64,000 bases of DNA from Micromonospora cathayae. Its GTDB lineage: Bacteria > Actinomycetota > Actinomycetes > Mycobacteriales > Micromonosporaceae. The notes beneath the pieces were generated by a model, which made no database searches, was not told the origin of the DNA, and worked only from the letters and a program-made list of their open reading frames with translations. Positions 12,911 through 47,944 of the stretch are shown here, one piece after another. The stretch is from contig NZ_CP118615.1 in assembly GCF_028993575.1 (NCBI RefSeq), positions 310,001 through 374,000 of the forward strand, given 5' to 3'. Position numbers and translations under genes: made by a program. Every line of letters starts with the position of its first letter. Position 1 is the stretch's first letter.

Positions 12911-12971
12911 GTTGATCATGAAGTTGTTGTCCGCGACACGCCGGGCCGGTGACAACAACTTCATGGTCAAC
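12911..12971 (-). repeat. palindromic intergenic repeat, family A, copy 1
   Basis: A 21-bp inverted repeat with one mismatch and a 19-nt loop (arms 12911-12931 and 12951-12971; the core arm is TTGATCATGAAGTTGTTGTC). It begins 20 nt past the stop of the LOG gene at 12992. Read in the direction of that gene, the loop ends in CGGCGTGTCGCG, identical to the copy at 47594. The plus-strand flank on the adnA side is a C-rich tract (about 12835-12910). Confidence 0.85.
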
Positions 12972-12991
12972 GCGCGCCGCGACGCTCCCTC

Positions 12992-13543
12992 TCAGTGCAG
13001 GGTGGAGGGTGGGGTGAGGAGGGTGAGGGCCGCCGGGAGGGTTTCGGCGATCAGCAGGAGGGACTGGCCGGCGGGCTTGATGAACTGCTGGTCGGTGAGG
13101 GTGGTCAGCCAGTCCAGCAGAGGACGGTAGAAGCCGTCCGTGTCGAGCAGGACCATCGGCTTGGTGTGCATCGCCAGGGTGGCGGTGGTCCACACCTCGA
13201 ACAGCTCGTCCAGGGTGCCCAGGCCGCCGGGAAGGGTGAGGAAGGCGTCCGACCGGTCCATCATGACGGTCTTGCGGGCGGCCATCGAGTCGGTGACCAC
13301 CAGCTCGTCGGAGGCCAGGTCGGCGACCTCCAGGTCGACCAGCGCCTGCGGGATCACCCCGACCGTACGGCCGCCGGCCGACCGCGCGCCGTCGGTCAGC
13401 GCTCCCATCATGCCGACGCACCCGCCGCCGCTGACCAGCGTGTGCCCGCGCCGGGCCAGCTCCGCGCCGGTGTCGAAGGCGAGGTCCAGCCAGCGCTGGT
13501 CGAGCGTACGGGAGGACGCGCAGAACACCCCGATCGCGGCCAC
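12992..13543 (-). CDS. LOG-family cytokinin riboside 5'-monophosphate phosphoribohydrolase-like protein
   Basis: A 183-aa Rossmann-like protein with the LOG signature PGGLGTLDELFE (about residues 105-116) and an N-terminal GGGCVGMMG nucleotide loop (about 38-46). The family hydrolyses nucleoside monophosphates at the N-glycosidic bond; the substrate here is unknown. The GTG start lies 4 nt after the stop of the second LOG gene, so both are in one transcript. A palindromic repeat follows the stop. Confidence 0.85.
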   Translation of the reverse strand: MAAIGVFCASSRTLDQRWLDLAFDTGAELARRGHTLVSGGGCVGMMGALTDGARSAGGRTVGVIPQALVDLEVADLASDELVVTDSMAARKTVMMDRSDAFLTLPGGLGTLDELFEVWTTATLAMHTKPMVLLDTDGFYRPLLDWLTTLTDQQFIKPAGQSLLLIAETLPAALTLLTPPSTLH

Positions 13544-13547
13544 CCGG

Positions 13548-14390
13548 TCAGTGCTCCCCGTGCGAGGCGGCGGCCTGCTGGTCGGCGGCGGTACGGGCGA
13601 CGGCCTGCTCGCGTACCGCCTCCTGCTCGGCGGAGAGCTGCGCCTCGGCCTCCACGATGTGCCGGACCGCCGCGTCCACGTCGTCGGTGAGGCAGATCAG
13701 TTCCAGGTCCACCGGGCCGATCTTGCCGTCGGCGGCCATGGTGTCCCGCAGCCAGTCCAGCAGTCCCCGCCAGTAGTCGGTGCCCATCAGCACCACCGGG
13801 AACCGGGTCACCTTGCCGGTCTGCACCAGGGTGAGCGCCTCGAACAGCTCGTCCATGGTGCCGAACCCACCGGGCAGCACCACGAACGCCTGCGCGTACT
13901 TGACGAACATGGTCTTACGGGCGAAGAAGTAACGGAAGTCGATGGCGAGATCGACCCAGTCGTTGAGGCCCTGTTCGAAGGGAAGTTCGATGCCGAGGCC
14001 CACGGAGAGGCCACCGGCCTCGCTGGCACCCCGGTTCGCCGCCTCCATCACCCCCGGCCCGCCACCGGTGATCACCGCGTAGCCGGCGCGGGCCAGGGCC
14101 GCGCCGAGCTGTTCGGCCAGCAGACACTCGGGGCTGTCCGGTTTGCTGCGGGCCGAACCGAAGACACTCACCGCCGGGGGCAGGTCGGCCAGGGTGTCGA
14201 ACCCCTCGACGAACTCGGAGAGGATGCGCAGCGCCCGCCAGGCGTCCTTGGTCTTCCAGTCCGCCCGGCCGCGCGAGTCGAGCAGCCGCTCGTCGGCGGT
14301 GCTGCTCGGCAGGGCCTTGCGGCGCAGCGTGACCGCCCCCCGGTGCCGTTCCTGCCCCGGGCTGGTGCCGCGTCCGTCGCTCTGGCTCAT
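13548..14390 (-). CDS. LOG-family protein (TIGR00730-like phosphoribohydrolase)
   Basis: A 280-aa paralogue of the next gene, with PGGFGTMDELFE (about residues 173-184) and TGGGPGVMEAANRGA (about 107-121). The extra 70 N-terminal residues are hydrophilic. The long upstream open frame is a shadow; ATG14390 (MSQSDGRG) is chosen because a leaderless-type -10 lies 6 nt before it. The link with dapE/dapD resembles the order near Rv1201c-Rv1205 in Mycobacterium tuberculosis. Confidence 0.85.
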   Translation of the reverse strand: MSQSDGRGTSPGQERHRGAVTLRRKALPSSTADERLLDSRGRADWKTKDAWRALRILSEFVEGFDTLADLPPAVSVFGSARSKPDSPECLLAEQLGAALARAGYAVITGGGPGVMEAANRGASEAGGLSVGLGIELPFEQGLNDWVDLAIDFRYFFARKTMFVKYAQAFVVLPGGFGTMDELFEALTLVQTGKVTRFPVVLMGTDYWRGLLDWLRDTMAADGKIGPVDLELICLTDDVDAAVRHIVEAEAQLSAEQEAVREQAVARTAADQQAAASHGEH

Positions 14391-14396
14391 GCAGCC

Positions 14397-14402
14397 ACCG
14401 TA
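14397..14402 (-). promoter_or_regulatory. -10 element of a leaderless promoter for the LOG gene
   Basis: On the minus strand TACGGT lies 6 nt before ATG14390. TAnnnT at this distance places the transcription start at the A of the start codon. No good Shine-Dalgarno sequence is adjacent. Confidence 0.4.
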
Positions 14403-14569
14403 GTGGAGGCTCCCGGCGCAGGTCGGGAGGGTCGGGAGGGTCGACCGACCGGTCCGCCGGCCCGCTCGACACCGGAGGCGGGAACCACCGCGCCGGGCGG
14501 CGGCCGGTTTCTGCCCGGTCGGCGATCCGACATCCGCGGAACGCAACGAATTCGGTCGCACGTGCGTCC

Positions 14570-14575
14570 TAGTAT
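14570..14575 (+). promoter_or_regulatory. -10 element for the 54-aa protein gene
   Basis: TAGTAT within CCTAGTAT, about 47 nt before GTG14622. The same octamer CCTAGTAT precedes the GNAT gene at 32489-32496. No clear -35 is seen. The leader would be about 40 nt and contain the GGAGGAG site. Confidence 0.3.
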
Positions 14576-14621
14576 TCACACACGGGGGGAAGCCCTGACG
14601 CGCCTTCGGGGGAGGAGCAGC

Positions 14622-14786
14622 GTGATCAGCAGCAACGAGAGGATCCGGATCCGGCGACAGATGCAGCGGCGGATCCGGGACGTGGTGGCCGAGCGGCGCC
14701 GGGCCCGCATGATGCGGCCCATCGAACCGACCGTCGAGACCGAGGCGCGGTCGGAGACCGACGCGCCCGTACTGAGCAACGGCTGA
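14622..14786 (+). CDS. small basic protein, unknown function
   Basis: A 54-aa protein beginning VISSNERIRIRRQMQRRIRD. The first two thirds are strongly basic and predicted helical, and the tail is acidic (TVETEARSETDAP). GGAGGAG at 14611-14617 is 4 nt from the GTG start, a strong site that distinguishes it from the shadow frame around it. It lies between divergent LOG and convergent dapE. It could bind nucleic acid; I do not recognise a family. Confidence 0.6.
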   Translation: MISSNERIRIRRQMQRRIRDVVAERRRARMMRPIEPTVETEARSETDAPVLSNG

Positions 14787-14841
14787 CCGACCGGCCGGGG
14801 GTGGGTGACCGGTCCGGCCGGTCGCCCGCCCCCGGTCCCGG

Positions 14842-15915
14842 TCAGGCCGGGGCCAGCCAGCGGTGCAGGGTCGCCGCGCCGTCGCGGATCTTCGAGATCT
14901 CGACGTGCTCGTCCTTGTGGTGGGCCAGGTTCGGGTCACCGGGGCCGAAGTTCAGCGCCGGGATGCCCATCGCCGCGAACCGGGCCACGTCCGTCCAGCC
15001 CAGCTTGCCGATCGGGGCGGCACCGACGGCGGCCAGGAACTCCTGCGCGGCCGGAGCGTCCAGGCCGGGCAGCGCACCGGCGGCCACGTCGGTCACGGTC
15101 AGCGCGTACCCGTCGAAGACCTCCCGCAGGTGCGCTTCGGCCTGGGCCGGGTCGCGGTCCGGCGCGAACCGGTAGTTGACCTCGATCTCGCACCGGTCCG
15201 GGACCACGTTCCCGGCCACCCCACCGTGGATCCGGACGGCGTTCATCCCCTCCCGGTAGGCGCAGCCGTCCAGGGTCACCCGGCGGGCCTCGTACGCCGC
15301 CAGCCGGCGCAACACCTCGCCCGCGCCGTGGATGGCGTTCACCCCGTGCCAGGAGCGGGCCGAGTGGGCCCGCTCGCCGACCGTGGTGACCACCGCCCGC
15401 ATCGTGCCCTGGCAGCCGGCCTCCACGATGCCGTACGTCGGTTCGAGCAGCACCGCGAAGTCCGCCTCCAGCCACTCCGGGTGCGCCTCCGCCACCAGGT
15501 TCAGGCCGTTGTACTTCTGCTCGATCTCCTCGCCCTCGTAGAAGAAGTACGTCACGTCGTACCGGGGGTCGGGCAGGGTCACCGCCAGGTGCAACGCGTA
15601 CGCCACGCCGGACTTCATGTCCGAGGTGCCGCAGCCGTACATCAGGTCGCCGCGCATGCTGGACGGGAAGTTCCCGTTCAACGGCACGGTGTCCAGGTGC
15701 CCGGCGAGCACCACCCGCTGTGCGCGTCCCAGGTCGGTGCGGGCCATCACCGTGTTGCCGTACCGGTGGGTGGTCAGGTGCGGCACCGCCCGCAGCACCT
15801 GCTCGACACAGTCGGCGATCGCCTTCTCGTTCAGGGACACGGACTCGATGTCGACCAGGGCACGGGTCAACGCCACCGGATCGGCGAGGACCTCGGGGGT
15901 CAGCGGGTTCTCCAT
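14842..15915 (-). CDS. dapE: succinyl-diaminopimelate desuccinylase
   Basis: A 357-aa M20-family metallohydrolase. It removes succinate from N-succinyl-LL-2,6-diaminopimelate in lysine and peptidoglycan synthesis. The metal-binding LAGHLDTVP, GCGTSDMKSG and the catalytic EGEEIE are present, as is the C-terminal HHKDEHVEI. ATG15915 (MENPLTPEV) is preferred over the long upstream frame, which is antisense to dapD. It is divergent from dapD with 79 nt between the starts, so both lysine-pathway genes share a regulatory region. Confidence 0.93.
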   Translation of the reverse strand: MENPLTPEVLADPVALTRALVDIESVSLNEKAIADCVEQVLRAVPHLTTHRYGNTVMARTDLGRAQRVVLAGHLDTVPLNGNFPSSMRGDLMYGCGTSDMKSGVAYALHLAVTLPDPRYDVTYFFYEGEEIEQKYNGLNLVAEAHPEWLEADFAVLLEPTYGIVEAGCQGTMRAVVTTVGERAHSARSWHGVNAIHGAGEVLRRLAAYEARRVTLDGCAYREGMNAVRIHGGVAGNVVPDRCEIEVNYRFAPDRDPAQAEAHLREVFDGYALTVTDVAAGALPGLDAPAAQEFLAAVGAAPIGKLGWTDVARFAAMGIPALNFGPGDPNLAHHKDEHVEISKIRDGAATLHRWLAPA

Positions 15916-15922
15916 GGTTCGC

Positions 15923-15928
15923 ACGGTA
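15923..15928 (-). promoter_or_regulatory. -10 element of a leaderless promoter for dapE
   Basis: TACCGT on the minus strand, 7 nt before ATG15915. The spacing fits a leaderless transcript. Confidence 0.45.
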
Positions 15929-15994
15929 CCGTCAGGGCTGTAGGGGCCGGGAGTGAGCTGTTCCGCCCCGTGGTCGTGAACGAAGGGTGAAACC

Positions 15995-16954
15995 GTGACG
16001 TCCGCACAGTCTGCCTGGGGTATCGGCGTGGCCACCGTGACCGCCGGTGACCAGGTCCTCGACACCTGGTACCCGACCGGCAAGCTGGGTCTGGGCGAGC
16101 TGCCGCTGGTCCCCGGCGAGGAGCAGGCGGACGTGCTGGACCTGCCGCCGGGGGCGGTCGGCGAGCGGGCGCTGCCCGGTCTGCGTACCGTCGAGGTGGT
16201 CACCGTGATCGGCGCGCTGGACGACCCGATCAAGGACACCGCCGACGCGTACCTGCGCCTGCACCTGCTCTCGCACCGCCTGGTGCGGCCGAACGAGCTG
16301 AACCTGGACGGCATCTTCGGCAAGCTGCCGAACGTGGCCTGGACGTCGGCCGGGCCGTGCCCGCCGGAGCGGGTGGACGAGCTGCGGGTGATCGAGCGGG
16401 CCGCCGGCCGCCACCTGGCCGTGTACGGGGTGGACAAGTTCCCCCGGATGACCGACTACGTGGTGCCGTCCGGGGTGCGGATCGCCGACGCGGACCGGGT
16501 GCGGCTCGGCGCGCACCTGGCCCCCGGCACCACGGTCATGCACGAGGGCTTCGTCAACTTCAACGCCGGCACGCTGGGCACCTCGATGGTGGAGGGCCGG
16601 ATCGTGCAGGGTGTGGTGGTCGGCGACGGTTCGGACATCGGCGGCGGGGCGTCGATCATGGGTACCCTCTCCGGCGGCGGCACCGACCGGGTCCGCATCG
16701 GCGAACGGAGCCTGATCGGCGCGAACGCCGGGGTGGGCATCTCGCTCGGCGACGACTGCGTGGTCGAGGCGGGCTGCTACGTCACCGCCGCGTCGAAGAT
16801 CACCCTGCCGGACGGGCGGGTGGTCAAGGCCCGCGAGCTGTCCGGCGTCGACGGGCTGCTGTTCCTGCGCAACTCGGTCACCGGCACGCTGGAGGCCCGC
16901 CCCCGCACCGGCCAGGGCATCACCCTGAACGCCGCGCTGCACGCCAACGACTGA
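15995..16954 (+). CDS. dapD: 2,3,4,5-tetrahydropyridine-2,6-dicarboxylate N-succinyltransferase
   Basis: The 319-aa actinobacterial form of DapD, which transfers succinate from succinyl-CoA to tetrahydrodipicolinate, two steps before DapE. The C-terminal half is a left-handed beta-helix with hexapeptide repeats (for example IGGGASIMGTLSGGG and RIGERSLIGANAGVGISLG). The N-terminal SAQSAWGIGVATVT fits the mycobacterial type rather than the shorter enterobacterial enzyme. GTG15995 is preceded by GAAGGGTGA. The stop codon region is duplicated downstream (separate entry). Confidence 0.93.
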   Translation: MTSAQSAWGIGVATVTAGDQVLDTWYPTGKLGLGELPLVPGEEQADVLDLPPGAVGERALPGLRTVEVVTVIGALDDPIKDTADAYLRLHLLSHRLVRPNELNLDGIFGKLPNVAWTSAGPCPPERVDELRVIERAAGRHLAVYGVDKFPRMTDYVVPSGVRIADADRVRLGAHLAPGTTVMHEGFVNFNAGTLGTSMVEGRIVQGVVVGDGSDIGGGASIMGTLSGGGTDRVRIGERSLIGANAGVGISLGDDCVVEAGCYVTAASKITLPDGRVVKARELSGVDGLLFLRNSVTGTLEARPRTGQGITLNAALHAND

Positions 16955-17022
16955 ACGCCGACGGACAACCGTCGTACGCCGACGGACACGCGCGGCACGC
17001 CGACGACTGAACGCCGACGGAC
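16939..17022 (+). repeat. duplication of the dapD 3' end
   Basis: The 28 nt that span the dapD stop codon (16939-16966) recur at 16995-17022 with one mismatch, an offset of 56 nt. Further partial copies of ACGCCGACGGAC lie between them. It has no coding function after the stop. Confidence 0.8.
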
Positions 17023-17025
17023 GCA

Positions 17026-17063
17026 CGAGCGGCCCGCACCCCGGAAGGGGCGCGGGCCGCTCG
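17026..17063. terminator. bidirectional terminator between dapD and the subtilase gene
   Basis: A 12-bp stem (CGAGCGGCCCGC at 17026-17037, GCGGGCCGCTCG at 17052-17063). After one A/C mismatch it continues as CCCC/GGGG closed by a GGAA tetraloop. It lies between convergent genes, so it can serve both. Confidence 0.75.
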
Positions 17064-17141
17064 CGTGGGGCTGGTGGTGTCCCCGGGCGTCAGCAGGGCG
17101 TCCCGGCCGGTGACCCCTGCCACCGGCCGGGACGACCCGGC

Positions 17142-20100
17142 TCACCGCAGCCGGTACGCCTGGGTGATCTGCTGACCGACCCGGCTGCCGTCGCTGGCGG
17201 CGGCGCTGGCCCGTAGCGTCGCCCAGCCGGTGCCGGCCGGGTGTCGGACGGTGGCGACCCAGCCGTCGCCCTGCTTCCGCAGGTGGGCCGGTTGCCAGGT
17301 CTTGCCCCCGTCGTACGACACGTCCACGGTCAGCGCGGTCACCGGGGCCGCCGGGGTGCCGGGCTGCCGCTGCACCGTCACCGGAATGGTGAAGGCCCGA
17401 CCGGCCGGGGCGGCGCTGTTCGCGTCCAACCGGGGGGCGAAACGGACCGCCAGCACCGGCTGCGGCACCAGTTCCTCGCCGTCCGCGTGCCCGGACCGGA
17501 AGGTCCAGTTGGCGATCACCTCGGTGCTCAGGTCGGTGAAGTCCCGGCGGGAGACCAGCTCCGCCCGGTACTCGGCCTCCTCCGGCGGGACCTCGAACTC
17601 GCCGTACGGGTTCTCCCCGACCAGCTTGCCGTCCCGGTAGAGGCGGACCGTGTTGTCCGCCAGCGAGAACCCGGGGTGTCCCTGCGCGTCGCTGTACGTG
17701 GGCACGTACACGAGGAGCAGGTCCCCGTACCGGTACACGCCGTCGCCGGGCCTGCGCATCTGCGGCAGGGCCGGGCCGAACGGCGCGCCGTTCCACTCGT
17801 CCCGGTAGACCCGGCCGGCCCGGTAGGCGATCTCGTCGGAGTACAGCATCGTCTGCGTCTCCAGCCACCCGTCGTCCTGGAGTTCGCCGGTCTCCAGGAG
17901 CGACCACCAGCGCAGTTCCGGATGGGCGTTGACGTACTCGACCCGGCTGCCGGGCAGCGGTGCGGACACCCCGGCGGCCGACGAGAAGAAGACCCCCTCC
18001 CACTCGGGGAAGAGCGCCCGGTAGGAGTCCACCCCGGTGTCGCCGTGCAATCGCTGGTGCACGGTGGCCAGGTCACGCTTGCGGTAGTCCCGGACGAACC
18101 CGGTCGGCATCGTGCCGAGCCACCGCTCGCTCACCGCGTAGAGGTACGGGCTGGCCGCCGCCCCGTCCTGCACCCACTGGCTGCTGATCAGCCCGACGAA
18201 CCCGTCCGGCGTGCCGGCCCCGCCGATCCGGCCGGTGCGCAGACCGTCGAACCCGTCCACCCAGAAGCCGGACCCGTAGTCGGCGTCGACCCCGGTGAAC
18301 TGCACGGAGACGTCCACCATCGCCGGTACGGCGGACTTCTCCGGCACCGACATCCGGACCGGCCCGGTACGCCGCGCGTCCACGGTGACCCGGACGTCGC
18401 GGTCGACGGTCAGTTCCGGCTGGGCGAGCAGGGCAAGCCCGCTCCCCTCGGTCTCGAACACCCCACTGACCAGTCCGTACCGCCCCTTGGGCAGCCGGAC
18501 GACGTCCAGCCCGTCGGGGCCCTGGACGTCCACCGCCCGGTACTGGTCCAGCCCGTACAGGGAGGCGTAGTGGTCGCCGGTCCGGGCCCCGGACCGGTCG
18601 AGCGTCTCGACGGTCACGTCGTAGCTCTCCACCTCCCGGTGCACGGCCAGCGGGGTCGTCACGGTCGTGCCGTCGGCGCGGGCCACCAGCCGGCCGGTGT
18701 GGTACCCGTCCGGGCCGGTCACCGCCGTGTCGGCGGTGACCGCGACCTCCACCCGACCGTTGGCCGGGACGGTCACCTGGTCCGCGCCGAGCCGGAACAT
18801 GCCGGCCGGGGAGGGTTCGCCGTCGGGGCCGGTGGCCTCCACCGCCAGGCGCAGGGTCACCGGGTCGGAACCGGAGTTGTGGTACGTGACCTTCCGGCCG
18901 ACCGGGGTGTCGTCGTCGTGCGGCCATTCGGTGCGGCCGAACGAGACGCTGGGCGGGTCGCTGGTGATCCGCTGGCCGATGGCGGCGGCCACGTCGACCC
19001 GGCCGGCGCCCTGCTGGAAGACGGTCTGCTCGGGATGCGCCTTCGCCGAGTTCATGGCCAGGGCCTTGAGCTGCCCGGCGGCGGCGTCCGGATGCTGCTG
19101 GGCCAGCAGCGCCACCGCGCCGGCCACGTGCGGGGCGGCCATCGAGGTGCCGGAGAGGATCACGTACCGGTCACCGACCGGGGTGCCGATCTGCCCCTTG
19201 GTCGCCTTCGCCGCCACGATGTCCACCCCGGGGGCGGTGATGTCAGGCTTGACCGCGTCGTCGTACCGACGTGGCCCCCGGCTGGAGAAGTCGGCGAGGT
19301 TGTCGTCCCGGTCGACCGCGCCCACGGTCAGCGCGGCGTCGGCGCTGCCCGGCGAGCCGACCGAGGCGTCCGAACCGTCGTTGCCGGCGGAGATCACGAA
19401 CAGCGCCCCGGTCTGCGCGGTCAACGTGTCGACCGCCTCCTCCAGCGGGTCGGTCCCCGGACCGTCGTAGCCACCCAGACTCATGTTGATCACCGTCGCG
19501 TCCTGGTCGACGGCGGCCCACTGCATACCGGCCAGGATCGCCGAGTCGGTACAGAACTGGCTCTCGCACACCTTGCCGGAGAGCAGGGTGGCGTCCGGCG
19601 CGACGCCGCGGTACCTACCCCCGTCGGCGGCCCCGCTGCCACCGATGGTGGCGGCGACGTGGGTGCCGTGCCCCACGGTGTCGTCCGGGTCGGTGTCCTC
19701 GCTGAAGTTGCGGCTCCCGGCCACCCGGCCGACCAGGTCCGGATGGGTGGTGTCGACGCCGGTGTCGAGCACCGCCACCTTCACGCCCCGCCCGGTCAGG
19801 CCGGCCCGGTACGCCGCCGGCGCGCCGATCTGGGCCACGCTCCGGTCGAGGTTGATCCGGCGCTTCCCGTCCAGCCAGATCCGGTCGACACCCCCCGCCG
19901 TGTCGACCCGGGCGTCGGGCGTGCCCGTGGTGAGGGCCGTCCACACGGTGGTGGCCCGGTCCTTCGGGGCAGTGACCGCCGCGCCGCCGATGGCGGGCAA
20001 CTGCCGGGTGACCCTGGTGCCGGCGGCGGACGGGCCGCCCGGCTTCGCGTCGCCCCGGTACCGCAGCAGCAGCGGCAGGGTGTCCCGCCGCGCGTCGTCG

Positions 20101-20477
20101 TACCCGAGGGCGGCCAGCTCGGTGACGTCGAACAGCCGCTGGTCGACCCGGCCGGCCCGGACCAGCGGCACCGCGTCCCGGGGCAGCACGACGACGTGGT
20201 CGCGGACCCGTCGGGTGACGAACGTGATGTCGGCCCGCCCCGGACCGGGGCGCACACTGACCGCGCCGTCCGCGGCGACGGTGACCCGGTCGCCGGTGAG
20301 CAGCGTGACGGTGACCGGCCGGGCGGCGGCCGCGGTCGGCCCGGGGCCGATGGCCGGTGTCCCGGTGGTGCCGGGGACGAGGGCCTGGGCGGGCGACGCA
20401 CCGGGTACGACCGCGGTGGACACGCCCAGCACCAGGCCCATGAGCAGCCCTACCCTGGATCTCCCTGTTCCTGACAT
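17142..20477 (-). CDS. secreted S8-family (subtilisin-like) serine protease
   Basis: A 1111-aa exported protease. A Sec signal peptide (MSGTGRSRVGLLMGLVLGVS, cleavage near AQA) is followed by a propeptide region. The peptidase domain has the catalytic triad Asp (AVLDTGVD, about 236), His (GHGTHVA, about 272) and Ser (SGTSMAAPH, about 444). About 550 residues of beta-rich accessory domains follow and contain many Gly/Asp/Tyr. ATG20477 has GGGAGG 6 nt upstream; the longer frame has no site. No membrane anchor is seen at the C-terminus, so it is probably released. Confidence 0.92.
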   Translation of the reverse strand: MSGTGRSRVGLLMGLVLGVSTAVVPGASPAQALVPGTTGTPAIGPGPTAAAARPVTVTLLTGDRVTVAADGAVSVRPGPGRADITFVTRRVRDHVVVLPRDAVPLVRAGRVDQRLFDVTELAALGYDDARRDTLPLLLRYRGDAKPGGPSAAGTRVTRQLPAIGGAAVTAPKDRATTVWTALTTGTPDARVDTAGGVDRIWLDGKRRINLDRSVAQIGAPAAYRAGLTGRGVKVAVLDTGVDTTHPDLVGRVAGSRNFSEDTDPDDTVGHGTHVAATIGGSGAADGGRYRGVAPDATLLSGKVCESQFCTDSAILAGMQWAAVDQDATVINMSLGGYDGPGTDPLEEAVDTLTAQTGALFVISAGNDGSDASVGSPGSADAALTVGAVDRDDNLADFSSRGPRRYDDAVKPDITAPGVDIVAAKATKGQIGTPVGDRYVILSGTSMAAPHVAGAVALLAQQHPDAAAGQLKALAMNSAKAHPEQTVFQQGAGRVDVAAAIGQRITSDPPSVSFGRTEWPHDDDTPVGRKVTYHNSGSDPVTLRLAVEATGPDGEPSPAGMFRLGADQVTVPANGRVEVAVTADTAVTGPDGYHTGRLVARADGTTVTTPLAVHREVESYDVTVETLDRSGARTGDHYASLYGLDQYRAVDVQGPDGLDVVRLPKGRYGLVSGVFETEGSGLALLAQPELTVDRDVRVTVDARRTGPVRMSVPEKSAVPAMVDVSVQFTGVDADYGSGFWVDGFDGLRTGRIGGAGTPDGFVGLISSQWVQDGAAASPYLYAVSERWLGTMPTGFVRDYRKRDLATVHQRLHGDTGVDSYRALFPEWEGVFFSSAAGVSAPLPGSRVEYVNAHPELRWWSLLETGELQDDGWLETQTMLYSDEIAYRAGRVYRDEWNGAPFGPALPQMRRPGDGVYRYGDLLLVYVPTYSDAQGHPGFSLADNTVRLYRDGKLVGENPYGEFEVPPEEAEYRAELVSRRDFTDLSTEVIANWTFRSGHADGEELVPQPVLAVRFAPRLDANSAAPAGRAFTIPVTVQRQPGTPAAPVTALTVDVSYDGGKTWQPAHLRKQGDGWVATVRHPAGTGWATLRASAAASDGSRVGQQITQAYRLR

Positions 20478-20633
20478 GCAACCTCCCATGAGGGTTCTCA
20501 TCGACGCCGATGACGACGACAGGGCACCGCCACGCTTCCACACGGGACGTAGCCGGAAGGTCAGCAATATGACCGAAAAATCGGGAAAGCTAGGGCAACC
20601 TTTCACCCGCCCGGCGCGTGGTCAGATTCCTTC

Positions 20634-39502: not shown

Positions 39503-39549
39503 CCCGCGCCTCCTCCCTGATGATGTGACATGTGACAAACCGGTGGTGC

Positions 39550-40536
39550 TCAGCGCAGCCGCACCCGGGGATCGATGGCGGCGTAGAGCAGGTCGACGAC
39601 GATGTTCGCGACCACGATGAACACCGCCGAGATCAGTACGGTCGCCATGATCGTCGGCAGGTCCCCGGCGCGTACCGCGTCGATGGCGGTCCGCCCCAGC
39701 CCCTGGATGCCGAAGGTGGTCTCGGTGATCACCGTGCCGCCGAGCGCGCTGCCCACGTCCAGGCCGGCGATGGTGACCACCGGGGTGATCGCGGCGCGCA
39801 GCGCGTGCCGCCCGTACACGGTGCGTTTCGCCAGGCCCTTGGCCCGCGCGGTACGCACGAAGTCCTCGGACAGCGTCTCCAGCATCTGCGCCCGGGACAG
39901 CCGGGCGTAGATCGCGGAGAACAGGAACGCCAGCGACACCCAGGCCAGCACCAGCCCGCTGGCCCACTTCACCGGGTCGTCGAGGATCGACGTGTAGCCG
40001 GGCACCGGGGTGATCCGGAGCTGGTACGTGAAGATCAGCAGCAGCACCGCGCCGACGAAGTACAGCTGCATCGACGCCCCGGTCAGCGAGAAGCCGATGG
40101 CCGCCTTGTCCAGCCAGGTGCCCCGGCGCAGCGCGGAGACCATGCCCAGCCCGACCCCGACCAGCAGCCACAGCACCGCCGCCGGGAACACGATGCTCAA
40201 CGTCACCGGCAGCACCCGGACCAGGGTGTCGGTGACCGCCTCGTTGTTCACGTACGACCAGCCGAGACAGGGCGCGTCGCAGTGGCCGCCCTGCGCGCTG
40301 CCCAGGTCCCGGCCGGTGACGATGCCCGTCATGTAGTTGGCGTACTGCTCGACCAGCGGGTCCCGCAGGCCCAGTTCCTCGCGGACCCGCTCCAGCCGTT
40401 CGGCGTTGCAGTTCTTCGGGCACATGCCGCTGACCGGGTCCTTGGGCAGGGCGAAGAACATCAGGAAGCTGAGCACGCTCACCACGAACAGGGTGAGCAC
40501 GGCGCTGAGCAGCCGACGTACCACGAATCGCGTCAT
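39550..40536 (-). CDS. ABC transporter permease, DppB/OppB type
   Basis: A 328-aa permease beginning MTRFVVRRLLSAVLTLFVVS, the family-typical first helix. Six helices are visible. The coupling loop EDFVRTARAKGLAKRTVYGRHALR is present. An external loop between helices 1 and 2 has four Cys (MCPKNC and HCDAPC), which could form disulfides. AGGAG lies 11 nt before ATG40536. It pairs with the DppC-type permease encoded 13 nt upstream. Confidence 0.92.
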   Translation of the reverse strand: MTRFVVRRLLSAVLTLFVVSVLSFLMFFALPKDPVSGMCPKNCNAERLERVREELGLRDPLVEQYANYMTGIVTGRDLGSAQGGHCDAPCLGWSYVNNEAVTDTLVRVLPVTLSIVFPAAVLWLLVGVGLGMVSALRRGTWLDKAAIGFSLTGASMQLYFVGAVLLLIFTYQLRITPVPGYTSILDDPVKWASGLVLAWVSLAFLFSAIYARLSRAQMLETLSEDFVRTARAKGLAKRTVYGRHALRAAITPVVTIAGLDVGSALGGTVITETTFGIQGLGRTAIDAVRAGDLPTIMATVLISAVFIVVANIVVDLLYAAIDPRVRLR

Positions 40537-40549
40537 GGGGACAGGGCTC

Positions 40550-41554
40550 CTACCGGGACGACTTCGGGTCGAGCGCGTCACGCAGCGCGTCACCGAACAG
40601 GTTGAACGCGAGCACCAGCGCGAAGATCGTGATGCCCGGGAAGAAGACGTACGCCGGGTCGGTCTGCAGGTACGGGATGCTCTGGAAGATCATCCGGCCG
40701 AAGTCGGCGGTGGGTTCGAGGATGCCGATGCCGAGGAACGACAGCGCCGCCTCACCGGTGATGTACTGCGGCACCGCGAGCGAGAACGCCACCAGGATCG
40801 GCGCCCACAGGTTCGGCAGGAGCTGCCGGAACACCATGTGCCCGAGCCCGGCCCCGCTGGCCCGCGCCGCCTCCACGAACTCCCGTTCGCGCAGCGAGAT
40901 CACCTGCCCCCGGACCAGCCGGGCGGTGCTGGTCCAGCTGAACGCGGCGAAGACCCCGATCAGCACGGCCACCTGGAACCAGGCCGGCACCTCCTCGCGC
41001 GGCCCGTAGAAGCGCAGCGCCACCGTCGGCACCACGGCCAACGCGAAGATCAGGAACGGCAGGGCCAGCGCCACGTCGGTGATCCAGCTGATCACCGTGT
41101 CGACGATCCCGCCCAGGTAGCCGGCGAGGATGCCGGTGACCACCCCGATGGTGGTGGTCACCACGGCGGCGGCGAACGCGATGAACAGCGAGGTGCGCAG
41201 CCCGTACACCATCCGGATGAAGATGTCCCGGCCCAGCCGGGGCTCCAGGCCGAACCAGTGGTCGCCGCTGACCCCGCCGACGTAGCCGAGCGGCATCCCG
41301 TTGCCGTCCAGCAGCTCCTGGAACTGCTCGTTCGGGCCGACCCCGTACAGCTTCGAGATCAACGGCGCGGCGAGCGCGACCGCCATCAGCACCAGCAGCA
41401 CGACGCCACTGACCACCGCCGTCCGGTCCCGGCGCAGCCGCGCCCAGGCCAACTGCCCCGGCGACCGGCCGACGACCTGGCGGTCCGCCGGGCCTTCGGC
41501 CGCAGCCGGGTCGAGGTCCGCGCGGACCTCGCCCTCCACCGGGGACAGGCTCAT
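40550..41554 (-). CDS. ABC transporter permease, DppC/OppC type
   Basis: A 334-aa permease with the OppC N-terminal segment (SPGQLAWARLRRDRTAVVSGVVLL) and the coupling loop REREFVEAARASGAGLGHMVFRQLLPN. Six helices. The ATG shares its A with the stop of the upstream ATPase gene (TGATG), indicating coupling. Confidence 0.92.
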   Translation of the reverse strand: MSLSPVEGEVRADLDPAAAEGPADRQVVGRSPGQLAWARLRRDRTAVVSGVVLLVLMAVALAAPLISKLYGVGPNEQFQELLDGNGMPLGYVGGVSGDHWFGLEPRLGRDIFIRMVYGLRTSLFIAFAAAVVTTTIGVVTGILAGYLGGIVDTVISWITDVALALPFLIFALAVVPTVALRFYGPREEVPAWFQVAVLIGVFAAFSWTSTARLVRGQVISLREREFVEAARASGAGLGHMVFRQLLPNLWAPILVAFSLAVPQYITGEAALSFLGIGILEPTADFGRMIFQSIPYLQTDPAYVFFPGITIFALVLAFNLFGDALRDALDPKSSR

Positions 41555-42591
41555 CAGGACACCCCGTTCGGTACGGCCACCACGTCACCGGCCGAGGTCA
41601 GCGGCCCGGTTTCCGGGTAGTGGCAGGCGGTGGACTGGTTGCCGCCGTCGCGGGGCACCAGGGCGGGGGTTTCGGTGGCGCACCGGTCGGTGGCCTTCCA
41701 GCAGCGGGTCCGGAACCGGCACCCCGACGGCGGGTCCAGGGGCGTCGGCACGTCCCCGGTCAACCGGATCCGCCCGCCCGTACCCACCCCGGTCACGTCC
41801 GGCACCGCCGACAACAACGCCCGCGTGTACGGATGCTGCGGACGCTGGTAGATGTCGACCCGGTCCCCGATCTCCACGATCCGTCCCAGGTACATCACCG
41901 CCACCCGCTGCGACACGTGCCGCACCACCGCCAGATCGTGCGCCACGAACACGAACGCCAACCCCAGATCCCGCTGCAACCGCCGCAACAGGTTGATCAC
42001 CTGCGCCTGGATCGACACGTCCAACGCCGACACCGGCTCGTCCGCCACGATCAACTTCGGCTCCAACGCCAGAGCCCGCGCGATCCCGATCCGCTGCCGC
42101 TGCCCACCGGAGAACTCGTGCGGATACCGGTTGTAGTGCTCCGGGTTCAACCCCACCAGTTCCAGCAACTCCCGTACCCGGTTACGCACCCCACCGGTCG
42201 GCCGGATCCCGTTCACCTCCAACGGCATCGCCACGATCCGCCCCACCGTGTGCCGCGGATTCAACGACGCGTACGGGTCCTGGAAGATGATCTGCAGGTC
42301 CTGCCGCAACCGCCGCAACTCCCCACCACGGGCCCGGGTGATGTCCCGACCCGCGAACGTCACCGTCCCAGCGGTCGGGGTCAACAACCGCACCAGCATC
42401 CGACCCGTGGTCGACTTCCCACACCCGGACTCCCCGACCAGACCCAGGGTCTCCCCCGACCCGACGGTGAAGTCCACACCGTCGACCGCCCGCACCACAC
42501 CCGAACGCCGGAACCCGTCCCGCACCGGGAAATGCTTCGTCAGACCACTGACCGTCAGCAGCGGGTCGGCGGAGCCGACTGGCACGCTCAC
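41554..42591 (-). CDS. ABC transporter ATP-binding protein, DppF/OppF type
   Basis: A 345-aa ATPase with Walker [10 protein letters not shown], signature FSGGQRQR, Walker B LIVADEP and His in VAHDL. The C-terminal oligopeptide/dipeptide extension has [14 protein letters not shown], a Cys-rich region typical of Opp/Dpp ATPases. GTG42591 overlaps the DppD stop (GTGA), with GAGGTAGGGGTGG upstream. It is a partner of the next gene and of both permeases. Confidence 0.92.
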
Positions 42592-43688
42592 CGGGCCACC
42601 CCTACCTCGTCGGCCCGGATCCGGGACCGCTCCGCCGCCGGCAGGTGGCAGGCCACCCGGTGCGCCGACCCTCCACCCACCGGCACCAGTTCCGGCACCA
42701 CCGTCCGGGACCGACCCTCCGTACGTTCGGCCCACCGGCAGCGGGGATGGAACGCACACCCCGCCGGCAGGTCGATCAAACTCGGCGGATTACCCGCGAT
42801 CGGCGTCAACTCCGCGCCCGCGTCCCCCCGCAACGACGGCACACTCCCCAACAACCCCCACGTGTACGGATGCCCCGGTGAGCGCAGCACCTCAGTCACC
42901 GTGCCGTGCTCCACCACCCGGCCGCCGTACATCACCAACACCTCGTCAGCCACCTGCGACACCACACCCAGGTCATGCGTGATCAACACGATCGCCGACC
43001 CGAACTCCGCCTGAAGATCAGCGAGGAGATCCAGAATCTGCGCCTGCACCGTCACATCAAGAGCCGTCGTCGGCTCATCCGCGATCAACAACTCCGGATC
43101 GTTGACCAACGCCATCGCGATCATCACCCGCTGCCGCATCCCACCCGAGAACTCATGCGGGTACTGGTCGAACCGCCGCCCCGGCTGCGGGATACCGACC
43201 CGGCCGAGCATGTCCACCGCCCGCGCGTGGGCCTCCCGTCGCCCCGCCCCGGAGTGGTGCACCCGGTACGCCTCCGCGACCTGCCGCCCCACGGTGTAGT
43301 ACGGATGCAACGCCGACAACGGATCCTGGAACACCATCGCCATGTCCCGTCCGCGCAGCCGGCGGACCGTCTCCTCGGGCAGACCGACGATCTGCCGGCC
43401 ACCGAGGGTGATCTCACCGCTGACCGTCGCCCGACGCGGATCATGCAGACCCAACACCGCCAACGACGTCACACTCTTCCCCGAACCCGACTCCCCCACG
43501 ATCCCCAACGTCCGACCCCGCTCCACCGCGAACGACACCCCGTCCACCGCCCGCACCACACCATCAGCGGTGTCGAACCGCACCCGCAGATCAGTCACCC
43601 GCAGGTACGGATCAGTTGCGGTACGCTCTGCGGGCGCGTCGCGCCCATCGCCCGGCCTGTCGGCCGGCATCGACTCGGGTCTCTTCAC
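42588..43688 (-). CDS. ABC transporter ATP-binding protein, DppD/OppD type
   Basis: A 366-aa ATPase and the first gene of the D-F-C-B-A importer operon. Walker A GESGSGKS, signature FSGGMRQR, Walker B LLIADEP and VLITHDL are intact; the C-terminal [15 protein letters not shown] is the Cys-rich extension. GTG43688 is chosen because GGGGAGG is 10 nt upstream; ATG43670 (MPADRP) is the alternative. A 257-nt divergent region separates it from the Uma2 gene and holds the operon promoter, which I could not place. Confidence 0.9.
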
Positions 43689-43945
43689 GACCGACCGCCT
43701 CCCCTGCCTGGACGAAGAGAACTTGCAGCACAACCCAGATGGCGAAAATAAGCTACAAGCCACCGTCCTGTCAGCGGTCGATCCCGTAACGAGTCGGCAT
43801 CGGCCCGCCGGGACACCCCTCGGGTCCGCCGAGCGGCGCGGCCCGGCGGGGTGCGGCCGGTCGGGGACCTCCAACGCACCTGAGGTGCGACGATGGGGGT
43901 CGGCGACCAGGAGAGGATGCCCGTCGGCTCGAGGTGGAGGTGCCC

Positions 43946-44497
43946 ATGACCGCAGCGGTGTTCGACCACGACGGACCGTGGCTGGAGGAGGAGTACCTCG
44001 CCCTCGGCGAGACGCAGCAGCGCGTCGAACTCTTCGACGGGAGCCTCCACGTGACCCCAGCCCCCACCCCACGCCACCAGCGCATCGCCCGCCGGCTCGG
44101 CAGCGCCCTCGAACCTGGTGCCCAGGCGGCCGGGCTGGAACTGCTGGACGCGGTGAACGTCCGGCTCCGACAGGACCGCATCCCCATCCCCGACCTGGTC
44201 GTCACCGACCCGATCGACCTGAAGTACCCGTTCGTCGACGGGTGGGACGTACGGCTGGTCTGCGAGATCGTCTCGCCCGGCAACGCCGCCACCGACCGGG
44301 TGCTGAAGATGCACTACTACGCCGCGGCCGGCATCGAGTGGTACCTCCTGGTCGAGCAGGACACCCTCGTCGTCCAGCTGCACCGGCGGCGGCCCGACGG
44401 GCACTACGTCGAGGTGGCCGCCGCCGCACCGGGCGAGGTGCTGGAGCTGACCGAGCCGGTGCGCGCCACGATCCGCCCGGAGACGTTGCTGGACTGA
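43946..44497 (+). CDS. Uma2-family (DUF820) restriction-endonuclease-fold protein
   Basis: A 183-aa protein of the PD-(D/E)xK superfamily. PTPRHQRIARRL, PIPDLVVTDP and VRLVCEIVSPGNAATDRVLKMHYYAAAGIEWYLLV, read as spaced motifs, give the Asp, Glu and Lys of the fold. Uma2 proteins are very common in actinobacteria and cyanobacteria; their biological role is unknown. ATG43946 has GGAGGTG 5 nt upstream, better than GTG43934. Confidence 0.85.
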   Translation: MTAAVFDHDGPWLEEEYLALGETQQRVELFDGSLHVTPAPTPRHQRIARRLGSALEPGAQAAGLELLDAVNVRLRQDRIPIPDLVVTDPIDLKYPFVDGWDVRLVCEIVSPGNAATDRVLKMHYYAAAGIEWYLLVEQDTLVVQLHRRRPDGHYVEVAAAAPGEVLELTEPVRATIRPETLLD

Positions 44498-44517
44498 CAA
44501 GCGTCGGTGGGGTCGCC

Positions 44518-44523
44518 TAGGGT
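44518..44523 (+). promoter_or_regulatory. -10 element of a near-leaderless promoter for tldD
   Basis: TAGGGT, 8 nt, ATG44532. No ribosome-binding site. Confidence 0.4.
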
Positions 44524-44531
44524 CATGGCCC

Positions 44532-45968
44532 ATGACCGAGTTCGACGTGGCGACCGCCGCCGTACAGGCCGCGCTGGACGCCGGGGCGCGGTACGCCGAC
44601 GTCCGGGTGATGCACCGCCGCTACGAGTCGATGTCGGCCCGTAACGGCGAGATCGAGGAACTGGCCCAGGACTCCGACCTCGGGCTCGGGGTACGCGCCC
44701 TGGTCGGGTCGAGCTGGGGCTTCTACGCCGTACCGGACCTGTCGGACGCCGCCGCCCGCGACGCCGGCCGGCGTGCCGCGCGGATCGCCGCCGCGAGCGC
44801 GCGGGTGCCCGGCCCGCCGGTGGAGCTGGTCGCCTCCCCCGCCGTCACCGCCAGCTGGGCCTCCTCCTGCGCGGTCGACCCGCTCGGCGTCTCGCTGAGC
44901 ACCAAGGGTGACCTGCTGGTCGAGGCGACCGGGACGATGCGGGCCCACGGGGCCGACCTGGCCGAGGGGCTCTACCAGGTGTGGGACACCACGAAGTGGT
45001 TCGTCTCCAGCGAGGGCCACCGGATCGACCAGCACGTCCGTGAGTGCGGGGCGGGCATCTCGGCCACCTCGATCGGCGACGGCGAGACCCAGCGCCGCTC
45101 CTGGCCCAGCTACCGCGGCCAGTACGGCACCACCGGCTGGGAGCTGGTCGACTCGCTCGACCTGACCACGCACGCCGCCCGGATGGCCGAGGAGTCCCGG
45201 GCACTGCTCACCGCGCCGGTCTGCCCGGCCGGCGAGACCGACCTGATCCTCGGCGGCGAGCAGTTGGCGTTGCAGATCCACGAGTCGGTCGGGCACGCCA
45301 TCGAGCTGGACCGGATCCTCGGCTGGGAGGCCGCGTTCGCCGGCACCTCCTGGCTGGATCTCGCCCAGCTCGGCTCGCTGCGCTACGGCTCCGAGCTGAT
45401 GAACGTCACCATCGACCCGACCATCCCCGGCGCGCTGGGCAGCTTCGGCTTCGACGACGAGGGTTCCCCGGCGGTCGCCCGGGACGCGGTCCGCGCCGGA
45501 CGCTGGGTCGGGGTGCTCGCCGGCCGGGATTCGGCCGCCGTCGCCGGCCTCGACTACGGCGGCAGTGTCCGCGCCGACGGGTGGGGGCGGCTGCCGATGG
45601 TCCGGATGACCAACGTCGGTCTGGAGCCGGGGCCGCACACCCTGGAGGAGATCATCGCCGCCACCGACGACGGGGTGCTGATGGACATCAACCGGTCCTG
45701 GTCGATCGACGACCGGCGGCTCAACTTCCAGTTCGGCTGCGAGATCGGCTGGGAGATCAAGAACGGTCGCCGGGGGCGGATGCTGCGCAACCCGACCTAC
45801 ACCGGCATCGGCCCGCTGTTCTGGCGCTCGATGGACATGCTCTCCTCGGAGATCGTGCCGTGGGGCACGCCGAACTGCGGCAAGGGCCAGCCGGGCCAGG
45901 TCGGGCACACCGGTCACCCGGCCGCGCCGGCCCGCTTCCGCAACGTCCGGGTGGGGGTGTCCGCGTGA
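44532..45968 (+). CDS. tldD: TldD metallopeptidase subunit
   Basis: A 478-aa zinc peptidase subunit. TldD/TldE form a heterodimer that degrades unfolded peptides and, in some organisms, matures peptide natural products or modulates gyrase toxins. The zinc motif HESVGH (His250, Glu251, His255) is intact, and the C-terminus has CGKGQPGQVGHTGHP. Length is family-typical. The stop lies in a GTGA overlap that is itself part of a duplicated sequence. Confidence 0.92.
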   Translation: MTEFDVATAAVQAALDAGARYADVRVMHRRYESMSARNGEIEELAQDSDLGLGVRALVGSSWGFYAVPDLSDAAARDAGRRAARIAAASARVPGPPVELVASPAVTASWASSCAVDPLGVSLSTKGDLLVEATGTMRAHGADLAEGLYQVWDTTKWFVSSEGHRIDQHVRECGAGISATSIGDGETQRRSWPSYRGQYGTTGWELVDSLDLTTHAARMAEESRALLTAPVCPAGETDLILGGEQLALQIHESVGHAIELDRILGWEAAFAGTSWLDLAQLGSLRYGSELMNVTIDPTIPGALGSFGFDDEGSPAVARDAVRAGRWVGVLAGRDSAAVAGLDYGGSVRADGWGRLPMVRMTNVGLEPGPHTLEEIIAATDDGVLMDINRSWSIDDRRLNFQFGCEIGWEIKNGRRGRMLRNPTYTGIGPLFWRSMDMLSSEIVPWGTPNCGKGQPGQVGHTGHPAAPARFRNVRVGVSA

Positions 45969-46072
45969 GCGCGAGGAACGCAGCGAAGCGGAGTCCCGCA
46001 GCCGCGAACGAAGAAAGGCTCCGCGTGAGCGCGAGGAACGCAGCGGAGCGGAGTCCCGCAGCCGCGAACGAA
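45961..46072 (+). repeat. in-frame direct repeat at the tldD/tldE boundary
   Basis: Two copies of a 52-nt sequence (45961-46012 and 46021-46072), 51 of 52 identical, with a period of exactly 60 nt. Each copy has GTGAGCGCGAGGAACGCAGC and ends GCCGCGAACGAA. Read in the tldE frame they encode SARNAAxRSPAAANE twice. The first copy contains the tldD stop codon. Confidence 0.9.
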
Positions 46073-46126
46073 AGCGGGTTCAGCGTGACCAGGGCCGGAG
46101 CTGGGCGGACGGGCGGGGGTGCCGGC

Positions 46127-47524
46127 ATGACCGAGCGGGAACTCGCCGAACAGGTGGTGGAGCTGGTCCGCCGGTCGGCCGGCCCGGGCGCGCACGCCGA
46201 GGCCACGGTCTCCCGGAAGGACCTGGCGCTGACCCGGTTCGCCAACTCGTTCATCCACCAGAACGTCGCCGGGTCGAGTGTCGAGGTCCGGCTGCGGGTG
46301 CACGTCGACGGCCGTACGGCCACCGGCAGCGGCAGCCTGACCAGCCCGGACGGCCTGCGGGAGCTGGTCGAGCGGACGTTGGTGGCGGCCCGGCTCTGCC
46401 CGCCCGACCCGGCCTGGCCGGGACTGACCCCGCCCACCCCGATGCCGTCCGCCCCGGCCGCCGACGAGGCGACCGCGTACGCGGAGCCGGACGAGCGGGC
46501 CGCCCGGGTCCGCGCCTTCGTGGACGCGGCCGGTGGGCTGGAGACGGCCGGCTTCTGCCGCACCTCGCAGGAGTTCGCGGCGTTCGCCAACACCGCCGGG
46601 CACACCGCGTACGGCCGGATGGTCGAGGCGGCCATGGACGGCATCGCCCGTACCGGCGGGGTCGACGGGGTGGCGCGGCTGGCCGCCGACCGCCTCGCCG
46701 ACCTGGACGGGGCGGTCCTGGGGGCGCAGGCGGCGGCGAAGGCACGGGCCGGCGTCGACCCGGTCGAGTTGCCGCCGGGGCGGTACGAGGTGGTCTTCGA
46801 GCCGGCCGCCGTGGCCGACCTGCTGCAGAATCTCTCGTACTGGGGCTTCAACGGCAAGGCGTACGCGGAGCGCAAGTCCTTCGCCGAGCTCGGCGCGGCG
46901 CAGTTCGACCCGGCGGTGACCCTGGTGGACGACCCGCTCGCCGGCAGCGGGCTGCCGTTCGACATCGAGGGCACCCCGCGCGGCGCGCTGCCCCTGGTGA
47001 CGGCCGGTACGACCACCGGGGTGGCACACGACCGGCGGACCGCCGCCGCGGTGGGCGGCACGTCGACCGGGCACGCCAGCGGGGAGTCGCCCACCTTCGG
47101 GCCGTTCCCGGTGAACATCCGACTGCTCCCGGCCACCGCGCACGCGCACACCACGGGGCCGGAGCGCGCCGGGGGCGAGGTCACCGGGCCGGTGGCCGAC
47201 CCGGACACCGCCGCGCTGGTCGCCGGCGTGCGCCGGGGCCTGCTGGTCAGCGACCTCTGGTACACGCGGGTGCTGGACCCGAAGGCGTTGACGGTGACCG
47301 GGCTGACCCGTAACGGGGTGTGGCTGGTCGAGGACGGGGTGGTCACCCGGGCGGTACGGAACCTCCGGTTCACCCAGGCGTACCCGAGGGCGCTCGCCCC
47401 CGGCGCGGTGCTCGGCCTGGGCCGCGTCCCGGTCCGCCAGCCGGCCCGCACCGAGCCGGTCTGGTGGAGCACTCCCCCCCTCCACCTGGCCAGTTGGAAC
47501 TTCACCGGCAACGCCTCCGGCTAA
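46127..47524 (+). CDS. tldE: TldE/PmbA peptidase partner subunit
   Basis: A 465-aa partner of TldD with the same fold but no HExxxH motif, as usual. Landmarks are RFANSFIHQNVAGSSVEVRLRV near the start, the DDPLAGSGLPFDIEGTPRG region, and FPVNIRLLPA. ATG46127 is chosen (GGGGGTG about 7 nt upstream). The frame is open back through the duplicated 60-nt sequence to GTG45965, so a longer protein with 54 more residues is possible. Confidence 0.88.
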   Translation: MTERELAEQVVELVRRSAGPGAHAEATVSRKDLALTRFANSFIHQNVAGSSVEVRLRVHVDGRTATGSGSLTSPDGLRELVERTLVAARLCPPDPAWPGLTPPTPMPSAPAADEATAYAEPDERAARVRAFVDAAGGLETAGFCRTSQEFAAFANTAGHTAYGRMVEAAMDGIARTGGVDGVARLAADRLADLDGAVLGAQAAAKARAGVDPVELPPGRYEVVFEPAAVADLLQNLSYWGFNGKAYAERKSFAELGAAQFDPAVTLVDDPLAGSGLPFDIEGTPRGALPLVTAGTTTGVAHDRRTAAAVGGTSTGHASGESPTFGPFPVNIRLLPATAHAHTTGPERAGGEVTGPVADPDTAALVAGVRRGLLVSDLWYTRVLDPKALTVTGLTRNGVWLVEDGVVTRAVRNLRFTQAYPRALAPGAVLGLGRVPVRQPARTEPVWWSTPPLHLASWNFTGNASG

Positions 47525-47944
47525 CCCCCCTCCCCCACCTCCCCTCCCCCCTCCCCCTCCTCCCCTCCCGCCCCGCGCCCGTCCCCCGCACCCTTGATCA
47601 TGAAGTTGTTGTCACTCACACGGCGTGTCGCGGACAACAACTTCATGATCAACGGGGCGAGGGACGGGCGGAGGGCGGGCGGGAGGGCGGGGTGGGGGTG
47701 AGGTTCTTAACATCCGTGGGGGAAGGGCGGGGTCCGGCTTTCCATGGGACGGCTCACACGCGACACTCCCTGCGCGAACGGCTCGTACCGAGCGGCGTAA
47801 CGTGTGTCACTTAGCTGCGTCGGTACGCCCCGGCGTGGCCTTGTGTGCGCAGGGGGACGTGGCTGCGGGGGCGGTGTGCCGGCCCGCGTGCCCGGCCGGA
47901 AGATGATCCGTGCCCGCGAGGGCCCCGTCAGGGAGACAACTGGA
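47525..47944. other. intergenic region before sdhC
   Basis: The first 70 bases are almost pure pyrimidine (runs of CCCCTCCC). Next comes the palindromic repeat, then a G-rich mirror-like tract to about 47710. Bases 47790-47830 are less GC-rich and include GTGTGTCACTTAGCT, where TTAGCT (47811-47816) may be the -10 of the sdh operon, leaving a leader of about 120 nt. No gene is convincing here. Confidence 0.4.
47594..47652 (+). repeat. palindromic intergenic repeat, family A, copy 2
   Basis: A perfect 20-bp stem (TTGATCATGAAGTTGTTGTC at 47594-47613 and its complement at 47633-47652) with a 19-nt loop ending CGGCGTGTCGCG. It lies 69 nt after the tldE stop. In the direction of transcription, arms and the last 12 loop bases equal those of copy 1 after the LOG gene. 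Confidence 0.88.

Follow-up and report, generated by a model that had tools for sequence, protein, structure and literature searches.

Two copies of one palindrome in the window

This analysis concerns a family of palindromes with two copies in a 64,000-nt stretch of DNA of the soil bacterium Micromonospora cathayae (the window; contig NZ_CP118615.1, positions 310,001 to 374,000), together with a gene elsewhere in the genome, here called X, that is flanked by the same palindromes. Copy 1 (12912..12970) carries the family core, CGACACGCCG, on the plus strand, against the upstream LOG-type gene (12992..13543, minus strand; Pfam Lysine_decarbox, TIGR00730), whose 3' end points towards it. Copy 2 (47594..47652) carries the core on the minus strand, and the 3' end of a tldE-type gene (46127..47524, plus strand; Pfam PmbA_TldD domains) points towards it. 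Both copies are 59 nt long, or 61 nt when the conserved outer G and C are included; one arm of copy 1 has one mismatch (TTGACC...), and the arms of copy 2 are perfect. The left flanks are C-rich (12840..12911 and 47525..47593) and the right flank of copy 2 is G-rich (47653..47708); the first 40 nt to the right of copy 1 had no clear G excess.

The first-pass annotation of the window had located both palindromes, and a search for their arms gave four matches compared with none in 100 shuffles. As it had also noted, when each copy is oriented by its upstream gene, the two loops share their final 12 bases, CGGCGTGTCGCG, after 7 bases that are not the same; the common loop reflects the fact that the copies belong to one family with the CGACACGCCG core. 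The distance of 69 nt that it gave from the tldE stop codon was exact, and the 20 nt given for the LOG gene was measured as 21 nt. Rfam yielded no match in the window. At six loci searched with E values up to 1, four matches to microRNA hairpin models were obtained, the best with an E value of 1e-4 and all far below the gathering score.

A dispersed family in the genome

The genome (G000) consists of 7,196,442 bases in one contig, and the closest named-record relatives of its proteins are from Micromonospora. Allowing up to 3 mismatches, we obtained 90 arm matches, compared with 3 for the reversed control pattern, and the arms were mostly arranged in facing pairs, not singly. After a chance match in coding sequence (6054035) was left out, 50 places were kept, 48 of 59 nt and two of 60 nt, with the conserved outer G and C giving a 61 bp element. 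The atypical copies at 583740 and 7096693 were left out of most element statistics and kept in the gene-context counts.

In a column profile built from 44 of the 50 copies, the element ends read G-TTGATCA and TGATCAA-C, and no unpaired GTAG or CGTC end tag was present. The first 14 bases of the arms were almost invariant (TTGAYCATGAAGTT), while the inner part of the arm and the loop's second half were variable. TTGACCA was frequent in one arm and occurred in both arms in none of the 50 copies. The core sets the direction of the element, which was A in 25 copies, B in 23, and undecided in two. Almost all copies had a C-rich left and a G-rich right flank, independent of core direction. The flanks were also considered as an exact palindromic target, and this was rejected, because their complementarity (10.5 vs 9.9 of 20, p = 0.003) was barely above that given by composition. 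The 48 copies were spread unevenly, with 12, 7, 7, 10, 2, 2, 1, and 7 per chromosome eighth. One copy (L057, at 1890548) was directly followed by an extra arm copy, as if by a nested insertion or a template switch.

Gene X lies between palindromes of the family

X (G000:C1:1507191-1508129) lies outside the window, between purA (identified by Pfam and NCBIfam) and purD, and encodes a protein of 313 aa. The protein matched Pfam AbiEi_4, with REase_MTES_1575 below the cut-off, and its homologs are named by NCBI as AbiEi-family antitoxin domain or DUF559 proteins. Its N half has an AbiEi-like fold with a winged helix-turn-helix, and its C-terminal domain, which is the better conserved part, is predicted to adopt a Vsr/homing-endonuclease-like fold. 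X was the sole predicted gene between purA and purD in G000, where no search aimed at toxin genes was made, and no match to X was found on plasmids or phages at an E value of 1e-5.

The X clade was delimited at E values below 1e-45, where a clear gap set it apart from the following matches. Family palindromes flanked X on both sides at 58 of 62 loci and on one side at the other four, in three of which the contig ends about 75 nt or less from the start of X. Kept outside the 62 were a locus with one degenerate palindrome on one side (G145), a gene in pieces with a palindrome on one side (G067), and two paralogs of 45-47% identity with one palindrome each (L344, L345).

In other species the purA-purD junction was empty (G006, G013, G015, G059), had one palindrome without X (G048, G052, G069, G071, G073), or contained X between two palindromes. 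Ten junctions that were fetched because they looked different, in addition to the 29 best-matching loci treated below, comprised four that were empty, five with one palindrome without X, and one with a palindrome and X. A second X locus, again with palindromes, was present in five genomes (G047, G052, G057, G071, G075), beyond the place matching the succinate dehydrogenase genes of the window. An initial assignment of this locus to the position directly after tldE was wrong, as it aligns beyond the sdhB-type gene. In the window, no family palindrome was noticed after the sdhB-type gene (51783-51948), beyond which the second locus of the five congeners lies.

Palindrome number follows the presence of X

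To compare genomes, we used a strict generalized pattern, which undercounts (G000 scores 15 and has about 50 places). This pattern detected palindromes in 56 of the 61 genomes of the genus, at 0-75 copies each, and in 52 of 200 genomes of the family, belonging to 8 of 44 genera; the 293 class genomes from outside the genus had none. Related palindromes were present in seven sampled sister genera, and other genera share both the CGACACGCCG core and the 59-nt length.

X-clade genes, of which the one in G067 is in pieces, were present in 49 of the 61 genus genomes, and palindrome number was correlated with their presence (49 with, 12 without, p = 5e-5). All five genus genomes with no palindrome lacked X, and the copy numbers in the 12 genomes without X were 0, 0, 0, 0, 0, 1, 2, 4, 8, 22, 25, and 25. 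Outside the genus, X was present in 14 of 16 genomes picked for their palindromes and in none of three without palindromes.

The N half of X co-varies with the palindrome arms

Partial Mantel tests with purD identity as the control for descent were used to compare X with the arms of its flanking palindromes. At 56 loci, residues 1-60 and 61-180 were correlated with arm identity (partial r of 0.60 and 0.56, p = 0.001 each), whereas residues 181-300 were not clearly so (partial r of 0.08, p = 0.055) and instead followed purD (r of 0.85). At 53 loci, the N half was correlated with both the downstream and the upstream palindromes (0.59 and 0.54, p = 0.002), and the nuclease domain, although nearer to the downstream palindrome, followed neither (0.06 and 0.03). 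Tracking of the arms by the N half and not by the nuclease domain suggests that the AbiEi-like half is the part that recognizes them. In G057, which has two X genes, 47 of 49 copies carried one of the two inner-arm types that flank these genes; the copies came from roughly the first half of the chromosome, with the outer arm fixed by the sampling pattern.

The arms of the copies within one genome evolve in concert, as computed from two sites: arm identity was 0.75 between two sites in one genome, compared with 0.59 when one site was followed across genomes (21 genomes, p = 0.0002). The two G000 sites beside purA and purD were compared with the 29 other loci that matched best; wherever the flanks could be mapped, a palindrome was present in 22 of 22 and 26 of 27 cases, often with different arms. 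At the LOG site (copy 1), a palindrome was present in 23 of the 29 other species that matched best (20 found by script and three by eye), and the 15 with the CGACACGCCG core all faced as in G000. The CATGAAGTT form was absent within 330 nt after tldE in all 80 relatives, so copy 2 was probably gained in the G000 lineage. A loose test found some palindrome after tldE in 12 of the 80, three of which were taken by eye as other dialects (L143, L149, L179); L143 and L149 have GCTACGAACTTGATGACG and GCTACCGACTTGATCG arms, perhaps of another family. Of the 49 sampled G057 palindromes, seven occupied sites that also have one in G000, and the arms of three of these seven were different. The picture suggested by these comparisons is one of old sites whose content turns over, plus new sites.

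Distant paralogs of X often lie between other palindromes

Distant X homologs (31-38% identity) were often located between palindromes with other arms, for example GATCTTGCACTTTC, CTTCGGGGAAG, GATCATGCAGTTGTGG, and CGACTTGCCTGGCA. We compared 19 such paralogs, the remainder of 20 loci after one without a match to X (L303) was dropped, with 597 control genes from G057, G071, and the window by Fisher tests. Palindromes were present on both sides of 13 of the 19 paralogs, compared with 9 of the 597 controls, and had matched arms in 9 of the 19, compared with two controls. One of these two encodes a DUF559 protein 30% identical to X, in effect a blind match, and the other, which has a copy of the family on each side, encodes an arginyl-tRNA synthetase. 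Another gene with palindromes on both sides (L386:651-1583) was considered and is not an X homolog.

Some of the other dialects also had a few dispersed copies in the 400 kb sampled from G057 and from G071. The window itself has a 48-nt palindrome of a second family, with TGCGGCAT arms, at 60906..60953. This family, with a length of exactly 48 nt, had three copies in the examined G000 DNA (in the window, at 873013, and at 1218648), and the copy at 873013 adjoins a distant X paralog. Palindromes of the CCGTTTCGGCG type, about 57-59 nt long, numbered about six in 400 kb of G071 (L392, L394, L395, L400, L407, L408); similar arms were seen beside an X paralog of G071 (L301), and one copy was seen in G000 at 2359151. 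Several paralog dialects start with GATC near the outer end (GATCATGA, GATCTTGCA, GATCATGCA, GATCTAGGG).

The palindromes are mostly placed at gene ends

Gene context was derived from a simple in-house gene caller. The 50 copies comprised 27 between convergent genes, 21 between tandem genes, and two between divergent genes, and the stop codons of genes reading towards a copy clustered at about 41-69 nt from it. A change from C-rich to G-rich sequence was found at 36 of 49 junctions with a copy, compared with 10 of 172 without. The 61-nt cores of the window copies fold with about -34 kcal/mol. In an alignment of the LOG site (12 sequences), 91% of the stem cells were paired and 5 of 19 pairs were changed on both sides. 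Its covariation score was above those of all 500 shuffles, and a slide of -3 scored almost equally; the number of doubly changed pairs was reached in 96 of 500 shuffles and that of pair types in 348 of 500, so that neither stood above shuffles. The placement and flanks of the copies make a second role as transcript ends likely, and many of the palindromes may act as gene-end hairpins. For eight predicted genes, including X, the predicted end falls on a TGA in the element arm, which would thus supply the stop codon (L054, L055, L059, L066, L072, L074, L077, L085).

From the common sense of the two window copies, the first-pass annotation had suggested either selection on an RNA hairpin or a mobile unit like the repetitive extragenic palindromic (REP) elements with a preferred insertion side. 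Genome-wide, many copies with a common core were indeed found, in agreement with a dispersed unit. The orientation, however, showed no clear bias: the core direction relative to the gene was divided 13 to 8 in the 21 tandem copies, with both window copies among the 8, indicating that the shared sense is not a general rule and giving no support to a preferred insertion side. At the commonest stem deviation, the transcript-side pair was C.A in 10 and U.G in four tandem copies, and with the 13 to 8 division this gives no support to an RNA loop selected in its sense strand.

Interpretation and alternative explanations

We consider that the palindromes are probably dispersed cognate sites of X, which spreads or homogenizes them. 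The computed results on which this builds are the architecture of the X loci, the co-variation, the co-occurrence, and the concerted evolution. The AbiEi-like N half would bind the inverted repeat that the two 20-bp arms form in the 61-bp site, and such binding would account for the fixed length; the Vsr/homing-endonuclease-like domain would nick or cut the site. Repair from another copy could then homogenize the arms and spread the palindromes to new places, to which the whole unit of X between two palindromes might occasionally spread too. Insertions after genes would be tolerated and the stable hairpin could serve as a two-sided transcript end, so that many copies could persist for long. 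Because the length is fixed, the loop is variable, and the arms drift as dialects, a dimeric binder of duplex DNA fits better than an RNA-only hairpin, with a cruciform or single-strand hairpin as an alternative substrate.

Several results weigh against this proposal. Binding, cutting, and movement by X are what we infer, and none of them was observed; all comparisons were made between species and captured no recent jump. Inspection of the copy flanks by eye, with no formal test made, revealed no target-site duplication. Palindromes without X occurred in seven genus genomes, G001 (25), G044 (25), G073 (22), G010 (8), G048 (4), G006 (2), and G069 (1), and outside the genus in G094 (8) and G111 (4); in G001, G010, and G044, which are assembled in 410-800 contigs, X may have been lost at contig ends. 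A single X-clade gene is present in G000 for about 50 copies, and G050 and G004 have two arm dialects with only one X-clade gene listed each. Most X-clade loci are at purA-purD, and hence the 62 loci are not independent. Among the distant paralogs, 6 of 19 had at most one flanking palindrome (L296 and L349 had none), and the arms of four of the 13 pairs were scored as unmatched (L294, L301, L364, L369).

Four other explanations were weighed. The palindromes could be gene-end RNA hairpins, namely two-sided terminators or protectors of mRNA 3' ends, selected at the RNA level without an enzyme of their own. The preference for convergent and tandem junctions, the stop distances, the change in flank composition, the folding energy, and the LOG-site covariation score agree with this, but we consider it unlikely, as the sense had no clear bias, C.A outnumbered the U.G wobble expected under RNA selection, the other LOG-site counts were not above shuffles, and the covariation score was nearly the same after a slide of -3. 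In view of the sense bias, wobble preference, and Rfam tests, an RNA-only reading was rejected as insufficient alone: it leaves the flanking of X, the dialects, and the co-variation of the N half unexplained, although such hairpins could exist in addition as a co-opted role. Slightly less likely again, X might be an AbiEi-like regulator and the palindromes the binding sites of its regulon, the nuclease domain being incidental. In favor of this, the promoter of AbiEi antitoxins contains inverted repeats to which they bind (PMC7319586), X has a palindrome upstream, and its N half changes together with the arms; against it stand the second palindrome downstream of X, the avoidance of divergent junctions (2 of 50), and the better conservation of the C-terminal domain.

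It is improbable that X is a passenger in palindrome-rich spots and that the palindromes are homogenized by ordinary gene conversion. Host recombination could convert near-identical 61-bp repeats, and most X genes are at purA-purD, so that the loci are not independent. However, there is a second home locus in five genomes, distant paralogs repeat the architecture, paralogs are accompanied by different palindromes, and it is the N half, not the C-terminal domain, that tracks the downstream palindrome. Movement by a Y1 transposase of the REP-associated tyrosine transposase (RAYT) type, as in enterobacteria and pseudomonads, is scarcely credible here. The habit is the same, with dispersed palindromes at gene ends and species dialects, but the absence of a REP-type transposase noted in the first-pass annotation extends to the whole genome, in which PF01797 (Y1) had no match, so RAYT was rejected as the current mover in G000. 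Within the genus, 17 of 61 genomes had Y1 domains, and these bore no evident relation to palindrome number: G014 had eight Y1 matches and no palindrome by the strict pattern, and G057 had no Y1 and 57 palindromes.

Relation to known systems and significance

In the predicted fold of its C-terminal domain, X resembles Vsr-like (EDxHD) homing endonucleases such as I-Bth0305I; it differs from them by the AbiEi-like fusion and the flanking palindromes, and homing of X is putative. DNA uptake sequences form inverted-repeat terminators at gene ends and also have dialects, which is the likeness to the present family, in which the arms are mostly in facing pairs and not in single copies. With type IV toxin-antitoxin AbiEi proteins, which bind inverted repeats (PMC7319586), X shares the fold of its N half and the Pfam AbiEi_4 match, to which it adds the C-terminal nuclease-like domain.

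The closest likeness is to REP/BIME and REPIN elements with their RAYT (TnpA-REP) genes, whose hallmarks are set out in PMC2817692 and PMC3733652. As far as these accounts go, both systems have dispersed palindromes at gene ends, a cognate gene between two of them, dialects, co-evolution of gene and repeat, a copy number tied to the gene, and a fast-evolving gene. The enzyme is different, as X is not a Y1/HuH transposase and is unrelated to it; the palindrome here is 59-61 nt, compared with the 20-40 bp given in PMC3733652, and the GTAG/CGTC tag described there is absent. The features of PMC2817692 that were tested were found here except for the enzyme, and with the tag lacking, the pair of X and palindrome works in the manner of REP/RAYT without belonging to that group. 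According to PMC3733652, CGTC-type REPs have no known dedicated enzyme, and its main text does not mention Micromonospora, Salinispora, or actinobacteria. No description of the pairing of X with palindromes was found in listings and abstracts of open-licence PMC papers, and an earlier description elsewhere is possible.

A broader proposal, on which we are evenly divided, is that AbiEi-Vsr fusion nucleases of homing type constitute a second, RAYT-independent class of REP system that acts on palindromes of 40-80 bp. Each paralog would have its own dialect and fixed spacing, and these enzymes would have given rise to several independent dispersed families in each Micromonosporaceae genome, and perhaps in other actinobacteria, with some families now acting as transcript ends. 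Bacteria commonly contain dispersed palindromes, some families of which have no known enzyme, and the hallmarks that tie RAYT to REP are now seen with a protein family that is not Y1. Because its paralogs have differing palindromes, repeat and recognition half can be paired directly and tested. These results also suggest a possible role for proteins now named only as AbiEi antitoxin-domain or DUF559 proteins.

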